Shown piece after piece: positions 12,839-40,693 of a stretch of DNA of 64,000 bases. Source of the DNA: Pseudomonadota bacterium (lineage in GTDB: Bacteria; Desulfobacterota; Syntrophorhabdia; Syntrophorhabdales; Syntrophorhabdaceae). The stretch's first letter is position 1. Each line of letters opens with the position of its first letter. The notes beneath the pieces were generated by a model. The model ran no database searches and was not told the origin of the DNA. It saw nothing but the letters and a program-made list of their open reading frames with translations. Location: contig JAPLKC010000043.1 in the NCBI GenBank assembly GCA_026388255.1, positions 1 to 64,000 of the forward strand, given 5' to 3'. The position numbers and the translations under genes were made by a program.

Positions 12839-12934
12839 GGAAGTGCCAAGGCGCCTGGTGGGTCTCCTGGTCTTCAAAACCAGTGCACGGGTGTAGAGCC
12901 CGTGGGTGGGTTCGATTCCCATGCACTTCCGCCA
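12839..12934 (+). tRNA. selC: tRNA-Sec (anticodon TCA)
   Basis: 96 bases including an encoded CCA. The acceptor stem has 8 pairs (GGAAGTGC with GCACTTCC), as expected for selenocysteine tRNA. The anticodon arm CTGGT-CTTCAAA-ACCAG carries TCA at 12874-12876, a long variable arm pairs CACGGG with CCCGTG, and the T loop is TTCGATT. This reads UGA as selenocysteine with SelA, SelB and SelD, none of which is in this window. yedF at 53 kb fits the same trait. Confidence 0.96.
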
Positions 12935-36888: not shown

Positions 36889-38049
36889 GTGCAAAACCCT
36901 TCTTACTCAAAACTATTTTTTGCATTTCTGAAACTCGGTGCAGGCGCTTTCGGCGGACCGGCCCTGGTCGAATACATACGCAAGCTGTCAGTGGAACACA
37001 ATGCGTGGCTTGATAATGAGGCCTTCAAAGATGGTGTTGCTCTGTGCCAGTCCATTCCTGGCGCAACGGCCATGCAAATGGCTACATATGTCGGCCTGAA
37101 AACCAACGGCATTTCAGGGGCAGTTCTTTCATGTTCAGGTTTTGTGCTGCCCGCTTTTTTATTGATGCTGGCATTTTCAGCACTATACACACATTTTCAC
37201 GACTTGCCCCACATTATCTCAATATTTGCTGGACTTAATATCATCATTGTTGCCATAATGCTGAACGCAACATATTCTTTCGGAAAAACATCGTTGAAAG
37301 ATTATAAAGATGCCGGATTAGCATTTGTTTCTGCGGGATTGCTATGGGTCGGCATTAGCCCTTTTCTGGTTGTGTCAGGAGCGGCTTTGCTGGGCATTTT
37401 AGTGTTTAAGGGTGAAGGCGTTGTTGTAAGCAGTGCAGGAAGAGGAACTGCTTTGTTTCACATGAAACATATTCTCTTTTTTTCTATTGCCCTTGTTTCA
37501 GGCTTTGTTTTTCTATATTTTTTCAGCATTAAGTTGTTACAGCTTTCCGCCGTAATGTTCAAAGTGAATCTTTTTGCCTTTGGCGGCGGATACAGCGCCT
37601 TGCCTCTTATGCTCCATGAGGTTGTTAATGTCAGGGGATGGATGAACAATAAAACCTTTATGGACGCGATAGCACTCGGACAGGTTACTCCAGGGCCGAT
37701 CATTATCACCTCAACTTTTGTGGGCTATCTGGTTGACGGACTGTCCGGCGCCATAGTCAGCACACTCTCAAGCTTTGCATCGTCGTTTTTTGTATTAATA
37801 ATCTCTGTCCCCTTTTTCGAAAAGTTAAGGATTTCCAGATATTTTTACAGTGTAACAAGGGGTGTGCTTGTAACATTTGTCGGACTCCTTTTATACGTTT
37901 CTGTCAATTTTTTCCTTGCAATCCAATGGGATATTATTAAAATAATCTTTGCGTTCCTTACATTGCTTGCTTTGTACAAGAAAATCAATATTCTTTATGT
38001 CGTGCTTTCAGGAATACCCATATCAATATTACTATTCAGTAAGCCATAG
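36889..38049 (+). CDS. chrA: Chromate transporter family protein (ChrA, two-domain)
   Basis: 386 aa inner-membrane protein with about ten hydrophobic segments in two CHR domains (about 8-180 and 200-386). Each has the GAxxFGGP-like signature: LKLGAGAFGGPALVEY in the first, VNLFAFGGGYSALPLM in the second, and QSIPGATAMQMATYVG/GQVTPGPIIITSTFVGY. Such proteins export chromate or related oxyanions; function in this host is inferred. GTG start without an obvious ribosome site, last gene of the hpt operon. Confidence 0.88.
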   Translation: MQNPSYSKLFFAFLKLGAGAFGGPALVEYIRKLSVEHNAWLDNEAFKDGVALCQSIPGATAMQMATYVGLKTNGISGAVLSCSGFVLPAFLLMLAFSALYTHFHDLPHIISIFAGLNIIIVAIMLNATYSFGKTSLKDYKDAGLAFVSAGLLWVGISPFLVVSGAALLGILVFKGEGVVVSSAGRGTALFHMKHILFFSIALVSGFVFLYFFSIKLLQLSAVMFKVNLFAFGGGYSALPLMLHEVVNVRGWMNNKTFMDAIALGQVTPGPIIITSTFVGYLVDGLSGAIVSTLSSFASSFFVLIISVPFFEKLRISRYFYSVTRGVLVTFVGLLLYVSVNFFLAIQWDIIKIIFAFLTLLALYKKINILYVVLSGIPISILLFSKP

Positions 38050-38110: not shown

Positions 38111-38139
38111 TTGACAAGAAGACCATATTATTTTTAAAT
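38111..38139 (+). promoter_or_regulatory. Probable sigma-70 promoter of the aminotransferase operon
   Basis: A perfect -35 (TTGACA, 38111-38116), a 17-base spacer and TTAAAT (38134-38139, 4 of 6 consensus bases) precede a start near 38146. This would give a leader of about 170 bases ahead of the aminotransferase gene. Confidence 0.5.
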
Positions 38140-38192
38140 GTACAAGTATGGATAAATTCGCAGGGTTTTTTGGATATTATTACTTTAGAAGC

Positions 38193-38245
38193 TTGCACCC
38201 AGGCATAAATTTGCTTTAATATAAGCAAAGAGCCATGGGTGCAAA
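38193..38245 (+). promoter_or_regulatory. Candidate antiterminator of a leader attenuator
   Basis: TTGCACCCA (38193-38201) pairs perfectly with TGGGTGCAA (38236-38244), and a neighbouring GGC pairs with GCC. The pairing encloses a small hairpin TTTGCTT-TAATAT-AAGCAAA. It competes with the terminator stem because TGGGT belongs to both. I do not recognise a known riboswitch class or leader peptide in it. Confidence 0.45.
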
Positions 38246-38265
38246 ACCCATGGCTCTTTTAGTTT
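38227..38265 (+). terminator. Intrinsic terminator-like hairpin
   Basis: A perfect 14-bp stem (38227-38240 with 38246-38259, core GAGCCATGGGT) around the loop GCAAA, followed by TTAGTTT, near 180 bases after chrA and 60 before the aminotransferase start codon. It could end the chrA transcript or act as the off state of the leader. Confidence 0.75.
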
Positions 38266-38318
38266 AGGGGCTGTGGAACTAATGTCCATGGTCTTTTTTG
38301 CTATTTTAGGAGGAAATA

Positions 38319-39503
38319 ATGATAGTTTCAAACAAGATGAGAAGGCTTATCCGGAACCAGGAGGGATGGACAAGGAAGATGTTTGAAGAAGGTATGCAGA
38401 TGAAAAAGGCTCTGGGCGAAGATAAAGTTTATGACTTTTCTCTCGGGAACCCTGATGTGGAACCCCCTCAGGCATTAAAGTCTGCCCTGATAGACATACT
38501 TACACAAACAACGCCCGGTATGCACAAATACATGGAGAACAGCGGTTACCAAATCGTAAGGGAGGGGATTGCCGAGTACCTGAAGATGCATTATGGGTTA
38601 CCGTTTACAGGCAAGCACGTTTTCATGTCTGTTGGGTGTGCAGGCGGTATTAACATACTTTTTAAAAGCATGTTAAACAAGGGCGATGAAATTATCGTGC
38701 CAAACCCCTTCTTCTGGGAGTTTAAAAACTATATTGAAAACTTCGGCGGCATAATGAGGCTTGTTGATACAAAAGAGGATTTTCAGCTCGATATAGAAAA
38801 AATCGAAGCCGCAATAAACGATAAAACAAAGGCTATTCTTATAAACAGCCCGAACAATCCGACAGGGGCCGTATACAGTGAAGAAAGCCTAAAGGAACTG
38901 GCAGGATTACTATACAGGAAAAGAGAGGAGGGTAAAGAGATATATATTGTGGCGGACGAAGCATATAAAAAGATTGTCTATGACGACATTATGCTGCCGA
39001 ACATCTTTAAGATTTATGACTTTGCTATAAGTATTACCTCCCATTCAAAAGACCTTGCCCTACCCGGCGAGAGAATTGGATACATCGCTATATCGCCCAA
39101 TATAAAGGAGATTGATCTTCTTATCTCAGGGCTCATCATATCCATAAGGGCTCTGGGATTTGTGAATGCCCCTGCTCTTTTTCAACGCGCCGCAGGCATG
39201 TTTCAGGAAAGCTCTGTAGATGTCATGGAATACAAAAAAAAGAGGGATATTATTTACAATACACTTATTGAATCAGGCTTTGAATGCGTTAAACCCGGCG
39301 GCGCGTTTTACCTGTTTCCGAAATCTCCCATTAAGGACGAGCTTGCATTTGTCAAGAGAGTGCAGAAGGAGGAGAGGATTCTTGTTGTGCCGGGAAGAGG
39401 GTTTGGCAGAAGCGGCTATTTCAGAATTGCATACTGTGTGACTATGGAGAAAATAATGAATGCCCTCGATGGTTTCAGAAGAATAGGCAAGCGATATTCG
39501 TAA
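38319..39503 (+). CDS. PLP-dependent aminotransferase class I/II
   Basis: 394 aa aspartate-aminotransferase fold. GNPDVEPPQALKSAL near the N-terminus, NSPNNPTGAVYS, DEAYKKIVYDD and the PLP lysine in TSHSKDLALPGERIGY are visible, and the C-terminal FGRSGYFRIAYC carries the substrate carboxylate-binding Arg. AGGAGG precedes the ATG. Substrate could be aspartate, alanine or aromatic amino acids. Tandem paralogue follows after 11 bases. Confidence 0.92.
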   Translation: MIVSNKMRRLIRNQEGWTRKMFEEGMQMKKALGEDKVYDFSLGNPDVEPPQALKSALIDILTQTTPGMHKYMENSGYQIVREGIAEYLKMHYGLPFTGKHVFMSVGCAGGINILFKSMLNKGDEIIVPNPFFWEFKNYIENFGGIMRLVDTKEDFQLDIEKIEAAINDKTKAILINSPNNPTGAVYSEESLKELAGLLYRKREEGKEIYIVADEAYKKIVYDDIMLPNIFKIYDFAISITSHSKDLALPGERIGYIAISPNIKEIDLLISGLIISIRALGFVNAPALFQRAAGMFQESSVDVMEYKKKRDIIYNTLIESGFECVKPGGAFYLFPKSPIKDELAFVKRVQKEERILVVPGRGFGRSGYFRIAYCVTMEKIMNALDGFRRIGKRYS

Positions 39504-39514
39504 GGAGGCAACAA

Positions 39515-40693
39515 ATGGTCATTTCAAATAAGATTTCAGAATTAATGAAGAGCTCTTCCTGGATTCGGGCCATGTTTGAAGAAGGGGAGAAGCTGAAAAA
39601 ACAATACGGTCAGGACCAAATATTTGATTTTACCCTGGGCAATCCAATTACAGAGCCTCCGGATGAGTTAAAAAGGGAACTTATAAAGATAGTTTCATCT
39701 GATATAAAAGGCAAGCACAGGTATATGACAAACAGCGGCTATGAAGACGTGAGGGAAGAAATTGCGGCATTTTATCGGGAGCGTTCAGGGCTTGATTTTA
39801 CAAAAAACAACATTATAATGACGGTAGGATCGGCAGGGGGCATCAACGTTGCATTGAAGTCGCTTCTTGACCCGGGAGATGAAGTAATTGTGCCGTGCCC
39901 GTTTTTTGTGGAGTTCATGTTCTATGTAGGGAACCACGGTGGTGTAATGAAGCTCGTAGACACAAAGGATAATTTTCACCTCGATATAGAAAAGATTAAA
40001 GAGGCGATTACCGATAGAACAAAGGTAATTATTATAAATTCTCCTCATAACCCTACGGGCGTTGTGTATAACAAAAAAGAGCTTAAAGAGCTGGCATCTG
40101 TACTCAATGAAAGAAAAAGGAAGGGGCAGAGAATATTTGTTATCTCCGATGAGGCATACAGGAAGATCATCTATGACAATATTCAGTTTCCGGATTTATT
40201 CCTCCTTTATGAGGATACCATTACAATTACGTCTCATTCAAAGGATCTCGCTTTGCCTGGTGAAAGAATAGGGTATATTACTATATCTCCCCTTATGAAG
40301 AATGCAAGCAAGCTCATCGATGCTGCCATATTTGCAAATAGAATCCTCGGGTTCATCAATGCCCCCGCAATCATGCAGAGGCTTGTCGCTAAGTTTCAGA
40401 GGAAGAGTGTAGATATAGCAGATTATCAGAGAAAGAGGGATGTCATATACAATATACTTGTAGACGCAGGTTTTGAAGTTGTAAAGCCTGAAGGTGCCTT
40501 TTATATTTTCCCGAAGTCACCGATAAAGGATGATATTAAATTTGTAAGCAACCTTCAAAAACATCGTGTACTTGCAGTTCCAGGGGTCGGCTTTGGCAAG
40601 CAGGGCTATTTCAGGATCGCATATTGTGTTGAAATGGATATTATTGAGCGTTCAAGACCATTTTTTAAAGAGGTACTGGCCAAAGCCAGATAG
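39515..40693 (+). CDS. PLP-dependent aminotransferase class I/II (paralogue of the previous gene)
   Basis: 392 aa, collinear with the gene just upstream in every motif: FTLGNPITEPPDELK, NSPHNPTGVVYN, DEAYRKIIYDN, TSHSKDLALPGERIGY and the final GYFRIAYC. It arose by tandem duplication, since the spacing and lengths match. Different residues around the substrate site (VGSAGGINVAL against VGCAGGINIL) suggest divided substrate range. Strong AAGGAGG site. Confidence 0.92.
   Translation: MVISNKISELMKSSSWIRAMFEEGEKLKKQYGQDQIFDFTLGNPITEPPDELKRELIKIVSSDIKGKHRYMTNSGYEDVREEIAAFYRERSGLDFTKNNIIMTVGSAGGINVALKSLLDPGDEVIVPCPFFVEFMFYVGNHGGVMKLVDTKDNFHLDIEKIKEAITDRTKVIIINSPHNPTGVVYNKKELKELASVLNERKRKGQRIFVISDEAYRKIIYDNIQFPDLFLLYEDTITITSHSKDLALPGERIGYITISPLMKNASKLIDAAIFANRILGFINAPAIMQRLVAKFQRKSVDIADYQRKRDVIYNILVDAGFEVVKPEGAFYIFPKSPIKDDIKFVSNLQKHRVLAVPGVGFGKQGYFRIAYCVEMDIIERSRPFFKEVLAKAR

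Follow-up and report, generated by a model that had tools for sequence, protein, structure and literature searches.

A probable Phe/Tyr-sensing leader-peptide attenuator with twin terminators ahead of two PRK06836-type aminotransferases in Syntrophorhabdaceae

The window, by which we mean the whole stretch of 64,000 nucleotides analysed here, carries a tandem pair of genes for PRK06836-type PLP aminotransferases preceded by a 209-nt leader. The chrA gene ends upstream of this leader, at 38049 on the same strand. The features of the locus are as follows:

38111..38139, + strand: sigma-70-type promoter, TTGACA -17- TTAAAT (sequence; orthologous leaders)
38148..38219, + strand: leader peptide ORF, MDKFAGFFGYYYFRSLHPGINLL and stop; ATG 8 nt past the -10 element, putatively leaderless or nearly so, with the start placed from the promoter
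38166..38186, + strand: regulatory codons F F G Y Y Y F (sequence; spacing in orthologous leaders)
38193..38204, + strand: arm 2, 5′ strand of the antiterminator, TTGCACCCA GGC, within the leader ORF (pairing; orthologs)
38210..38229, + strand: inner hairpin of the antiterminator, TTTGCTT/AAGCAAA, containing the leader stop codon (folding; orthologs)
38227..38244, + strand: arm 3, the 5′ arm of terminator 1 (38227-38240) overlapping the 3′ strand of the antiterminator (38236-38244) (pairing, conservation, covariation)
38246..38259, + strand: arm 4, the 3′ arm of terminator 1, then a short U-tract (pairing, conservation, covariation)
38248..38276, + strand: possible relay hairpin 4:5, 38248-38258 with 38266-38276, 11 pairs including G-U (folding)
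38266..38299, + strand: terminator 2 (arms 5 and 6, 38266-38296) and its U-tract (folding; 24 of 24 orthologous leaders)
38308..38313, + strand: ribosome-binding site AGGAGG of aminotransferase 1 (sequence)
38319..39503, + strand: PRK06836-type PLP aminotransferase 1 (NF005305, 522.6 bits, cut-off 376)
39515..40693, + strand: PRK06836-type PLP aminotransferase 2, the tandem paralogue (NF005305, 556.8 bits)

An earlier note on this DNA had pointed to a good promoter upstream of the leader, and the one at 38111-38139 bears this out: its TTGACA is found unchanged in all 24 orthologous leaders, that is, in the window and at 23 other loci. These loci were found by protein and carry titles that are mostly Syntrophorhabdaceae, Syntrophorhabdus or deltaproteobacterial MAGs. 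The tandem PRK06836 pair is also present in many relatives within the order, and the leader is a single copy in its own 3.83-Mb genome. The promoter of its own and the retention of the leader at the 23 orthologous loci both agree with the note's assignment of the leader to the two aminotransferases.

The leader ORF reads ATG GAT AAA TTC GCA GGG TTT TTT GGA TAT TAT TAC TTT AGA AGC TTG CAC CCA GGC ATA AAT TTG CTT TAA. The earlier note saw no leader peptide of the Trp or His type; it overlooked this ORF, as well as the second terminator at 38266-38296. Each of the 24 orthologous leaders has an aromatic-rich ORF in this position (for example, MKRSNGFYGFYFYFRSLHPGIILL in L003 and MQRSSVYSFFYFYYFTCLHP in L012), with 110 Phe and 64 Tyr codons before arm 2 when summed over the set. 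The last Phe or Tyr codon ends exactly 8 nt before GCACCC of the antiterminator strand in 21 of the 24 leaders (5, 10 and 11 nt in the others). Among the 23 leaders having a stop codon, 22 have it 1-16 nt past arm 2, and in the exception, L021, it lies ahead of arm 2. L009 has no in-frame stop: the usual TGA is TGG and the frame is open to the aminotransferase start, as might result from an assembly error or from decay of the switch. In a leader-peptide attenuator, a short ORF has its run of codons for the amino acid under control just 5′ of the antiterminator strand and its stop codon near or beyond that strand; ORFs with such a run are predicted in all 24 leaders, and the spacing of codons, arm 2 and stop is, as read from the sequence, the geometry expected of ribosome-mediated attenuation. 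The distance from the -10 element to the ATG (median 8.5 nt, range 1-18 over the 24 leaders) suggests that the mRNA may be leaderless or almost leaderless.

TTGCACCCA (38193-38201) is complementary over its whole length to TGGGTGCAA (38236-38244), so the pairing described in the earlier note is real, and the TGGGT at 38236-38240 is indeed common to the antiterminator and the perfect 14-bp stem of terminator 1 (38227-38240 with 38246-38259). As the note had argued, the two folds exclude each other, both using arm 3. The 209-nt leader has a folding energy of -61.9 kcal/mol, compared with -44.7 +/- 4.45 for shuffled sequences (z -3.87; 0 of 200 shuffles as low). All five arms, 2 to 6, are recognisable in each of the 24 orthologous leaders. 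Folding these leaders for covariation, a check that the note had proposed, gave mean energies of -25.4 for the antiterminator 2:3 (mean z -4.3) and -22.0 for terminator 1, 3:4 (mean z -5.3), with compensatory changes in terminator 1 across the leaders. The RNAalifold consensus of the 24 leaders consists of terminators 1 and 2, with both-sided changes in 8 of 24 pairs, and has no pairs upstream of the switch, in the region of the leader ORF. The inner hairpin has different, still complementary sequences in L006, L014 and L015. None of 2000 permutations was as good as cognate 3:4 or cognate 5:6; with 2:3, 72 of 2000 were as low as the cognate. The two end states have nearly equal mean energies, -45.7 (antitermination) and -46.0 (termination), antitermination being lower in 14 of the 24 leaders. 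Every leader forms the antiterminator under simple stepwise folding, and when arm 2 is masked the minimum-energy fold of arms 3-6 contains both terminators in only 15 of 24. In their common arm 3, stability and conservation, these elements correspond to the mutually exclusive antiterminator and intrinsic terminator of an attenuator.

We conclude that the leader is very probably a ribosome-mediated transcription attenuator that senses the supply of Phe and Tyr and controls the two PRK06836 aminotransferases. The sensed signal is most likely charged tRNA-Phe and tRNA-Tyr, because a Phe/Tyr-rich leader peptide is present both in the window and at the other 23 loci; the new ligand or trigger contemplated in the earlier note is then not needed. 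The leader peptide, spacing, exclusive pairings, conservation, covariation and twin terminators are taken from the sequence, and from here we infer the start site, the stalling and the termination. Transcription would start at or beside the AUG of the 23-codon leader ORF. When Phe- or Tyr-tRNA is scarce, a ribosome would stall on the FFGYYYF codons and leave arm 2 free, so that the 2:3 antiterminator would form and transcription would read through into the two aminotransferases. With a good supply, the ribosome would reach the stop codon and cover arm 2, and 3:4 and 5:6 would form as terminators 1 and 2.

A covariance model, R1, was built from the 24 orthologous leaders. Searched against 46 genomes of the order, it has matches in every one of them (E<=0.01) and frequently several in one genome. 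We read 84 leaders, namely the 24 model builders and 60 further hits chosen among the matches listed; the hits not preceding PRK06836 genes were chosen by eye, mostly at E<=1e-5. L095-L097 (weak own-genome hits with no aromatic leader) were dropped and L156-L158 were also unused. For L126, L129, L138, L146, L149, L153 and L155 the strand opposite to the listed one was taken, on which L153 has no aromatic leader; L121 is cut by a contig end. By downstream gene class (from NCBIfam for representatives only, by eye for the others), family members precede DAHP synthase (F, Y and W leaders, for example SFNFYYWYFYGIKHP), chorismate mutase/prephenate dehydratase (pheA; for example GGWRFYWIGAHL), a second type of aminotransferase (poly-Tyr leaders, ...AYYYYYYYAKGHS), and a TrpB-like enzyme and TRAP-transporter genes (WWWW), with single cases before a GNAT protein, an MBL-fold protein, a thiolase and a binding protein. 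A stretch of 6 codons with at least 3 F/Y/W is present in 81 of the 84 leaders versus 265 of 1660 control positions, and one with at least 4 in 69 of 84 versus 36 of 1660.

The own genome carries a second aromatic leader, L093 (G000:C85:90783-90900, - strand; MIRRKGWFNFYYFYYYSFRDRSAFLCQIT), whose first hairpin has no U-tract and which lies before a gene for a 527-aa GNAT-domain protein, and a Trp-rich leader with twin terminators, L094 (G000:C45:21844-21958, + strand; MKKDTVKIQWIWWWQAM), before a TrpB-like gene. Elsewhere, Trp-rich attenuators (L110, L131, L139, L143 and similar) lie ahead of TRAP-transporter genes, which suggests that a TRAP system imports Trp or some indole compound.

Across the wider phylum, the model has a match at E<=1e-6 in 72 of the 297 genomes, 12 of these 72 being in the window's order. 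Twenty of the wider-phylum hits were read: 16 have aromatic leaders and 5 precede PRK06836 genes. In two, L168 and L171, Leu-rich leaders and twin CCATGG-type terminators precede what appears, by eye, to be 2-isopropylmalate synthase; judging from these, the design may not be confined to aromatic amino acids. Of 34 PRK06836 loci sampled through the gene and not through the leader, 23 could be recognised, and L028 alone among these carries the leader; the leader is therefore lineage-specific, most such genes outside the order being without it.

Both terminators are present in 75 of the 84 leaders, and the remaining 9 are all DAHP synthase leaders. Two adjacent intrinsic terminators thus stand behind one leader peptide, as in the ermK attenuator. 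Between them, the predicted hairpin 4:5 has -14.7 kcal/mol in the window, compared with -12.3 for terminator 2. Over the 24 orthologous leaders the mean energies are -16.6 for 4:5 (mean z -4.3) and -17.4 for 5:6 (mean z -4.5), and 4:5 equals or exceeds 5:6 in stability in no more than 8 of the 24, one of them being the window. In stepwise folding, 2:3 forms and then 4:5, before arm 6 exists, in all 24. In the relay proposed here, arm 4, freed from arm 3, would capture arm 5 before arm 6 is made, and the antiterminator would in this way also disarm terminator 2. We think it somewhat better than an even chance that this relay operates.

At least 8 contiguous 4:5 pairs are possible in all 75 twin leaders, a count that the common CCATGG core makes partly automatic. 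If a U-tract is counted as absent when the longest U-run is 3 or shorter, terminator 1 is without one in 15 of the 75 twin leaders and terminator 2 in 3 (Wilcoxon test on run lengths, 8e-5); the set with a U-less terminator 1 includes 7 of the 8 TRAP leaders, L005 and the own-genome leader L093. Conversely, terminator 1 has a U-run of at least 6 in all 9 single-terminator leaders versus 26 of the 75 twin leaders; both U-tract patterns speak for the relay. In a first permutation test on the 24 leaders, 26 of 2000 permutations were as low as cognate 4:5; 3:6, a pairing required by no model, was also better when cognate (17 of 2000 as low). Over the larger set, permutations as low numbered 8 of 5000 when pooled, 0 of 5000 within class and 1 of 5000 within class and family, but 2971 of 5000 permuted terminator-2 units were as low within genus and 3766 of 5000 within genome. 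Since the pooled and class signals disappear at these levels, leader-specific covariation of 4:5 is not claimed. Three leaders of family f10 have an altered terminator 2 (CCATAGGG), and on inspection their 4:5 is interrupted, which counts against the relay. A C in the core of arm 4 goes with a G in the core of arm 5 in 4 of 4 leaders versus 5 of 71 otherwise (Fisher 1e-4), a comparison that covers three genera only and in which the arm-5 cores of L112 and L139 are apparently misparsed. The comparison of 4:5 with 4:6 (94 of 95 favour 4:5) was set aside as biased, the leaders having been found with a model of the same hairpin. Finally, the GCCATGG..CCATGGC hairpin has 5 forward matches at 4 sites in the 3.83-Mb genome; three sites are leaders and the fourth is in C82, and a generic CCATGG terminator was therefore rejected for this genome.

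The same Phe/Tyr attenuator could also work with terminator 2 as an uncoupled back-up of constant leakiness and no relay through 4:5. Tandem terminators raise termination efficiency in general, and the permutations within genus and within genome, with no leader-specific matching of 4:5, are what such a back-up would give. However, opening terminator 1 would then be of little use, because terminator 2 comes immediately after. Moreover, the 15 twin leaders with a U-less terminator 1 keep the antiterminator and 3:4, and in them an uncoupled switch would control nothing. Terminator 2 also has the core of terminator 1, although the CCATGG hairpin is rare in the own genome. We regard the uncoupled back-up as possible but doubtful.

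At gathering scores, Rfam finds only tRNAs in the whole window; at E<=10 the leader region has 13 weak matches, among them no leader family, T-box or riboswitch. Near-hits such as psRNA14 (27.2 bits, where the gathering score is 60) and MIR405 were dismissed as chance hairpin matches. Phe/Tyr control by T-boxes exists elsewhere, but with no T-box in the Rfam scans, and with a leader ORF and spacing that account for control without a protein, selection of the fold by a T-box or an RNA-binding protein is very unlikely. The competing folds would also suit a metabolite riboswitch with a new ligand, and the earlier note was right that no known aptamer is among the matches; yet what is conserved upstream of the switch is no folded domain but an ORF whose aromatic codons keep a fixed spacing, which makes a riboswitch more improbable still. 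The note had also considered that the hairpins might merely end transcription of chrA, which lies upstream on the same strand. A promoter stands between them, and the leader is kept at all 23 orthologous loci whereas a chrA relative is found at none of them (tblastn, E<=1e-10); this explanation has the smallest chance of all. As a separate observation, a selenocysteine tRNA is found at window positions 12839-12930 (+ strand, 74.1 bits), from which the organism probably makes selenoproteins.

Within the deltaproteobacterial lineages of this phylum, these leaders may form a class in which one stalled ribosome would disarm two tandem terminators by domino pairing (2:3 would free arm 4, and 4:5 would keep arm 5 from arm 6), while in some members the first hairpin, its U-tract lost, would act solely as a transducer. 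Such a class would control genes for aromatic amino acids and, as judged by eye, for leucine in many families, and for it the balance tips only slightly to the favourable side.

Leader-peptide attenuators are well known from enterobacteria (pheA/pheST, trp and his; Phe_leader in Rfam). The present leader resembles them in its peptide rich in the regulated amino acid, in the strand common to antiterminator and terminator and, as proposed, in read-through upon starvation. It differs in matching no Rfam leader family, in its mixed Phe and Tyr codons, in a consensus lacking any conserved 1:2 pause hairpin, and in its predicted start beside the AUG, its two terminators and its aminotransferase genes. 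The closest precedent is ermK of Bacillus, with a leader peptide and two adjacent Rho-independent terminators (PMC4335068); stalling is drug-induced in ermK, whereas amino acid starvation is proposed here. The mgtCBR leader of Salmonella has tandem attenuators, two attenuation units in one leader (PMC3641672), and uses two ORFs and two signals, in contrast to one ORF and one signal for two terminators here. The attenuator RNA of Sinorhizobium trpL (peTrpL) likewise begins at the ATG of the leader ORF (PMC7298713); it responds to Trp, and the available part of the source mentions no twin terminators. In the rimP-leader of some Gammaproteobacteria a second terminator is in tandem with an antiterminator (PMC2965389), with no amino-acid leader peptide mentioned in the portion at hand. 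Classical actinobacterial attenuators are a further precedent (PMC1262725). In a search on Phe/Tyr attenuators, on Syntrophorhabdus or deltaproteobacterial leader peptides and on tandem terminators, which mostly covered papers outside subscription, no description of this leader is among the results listed. The mechanism is thus known in kind, and the variant lies in the twin terminators with their probable relay, the putative leaderless start and the regulon.

These results replace the idea of a riboswitch for an unknown ligand with a concrete and testable Phe/Tyr attenuator. If the relay is true, the position of one ribosome would be handed down the RNA from one strand exchange to the next, an idea for which the first hairpin without a U-tract is a clean test case. 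The leader also links the widespread and poorly annotated PRK06836 aminotransferases to Phe/Tyr metabolism in these bacteria, and, in an order represented here solely by metagenome assemblies, it brings an aromatic regulon to light.
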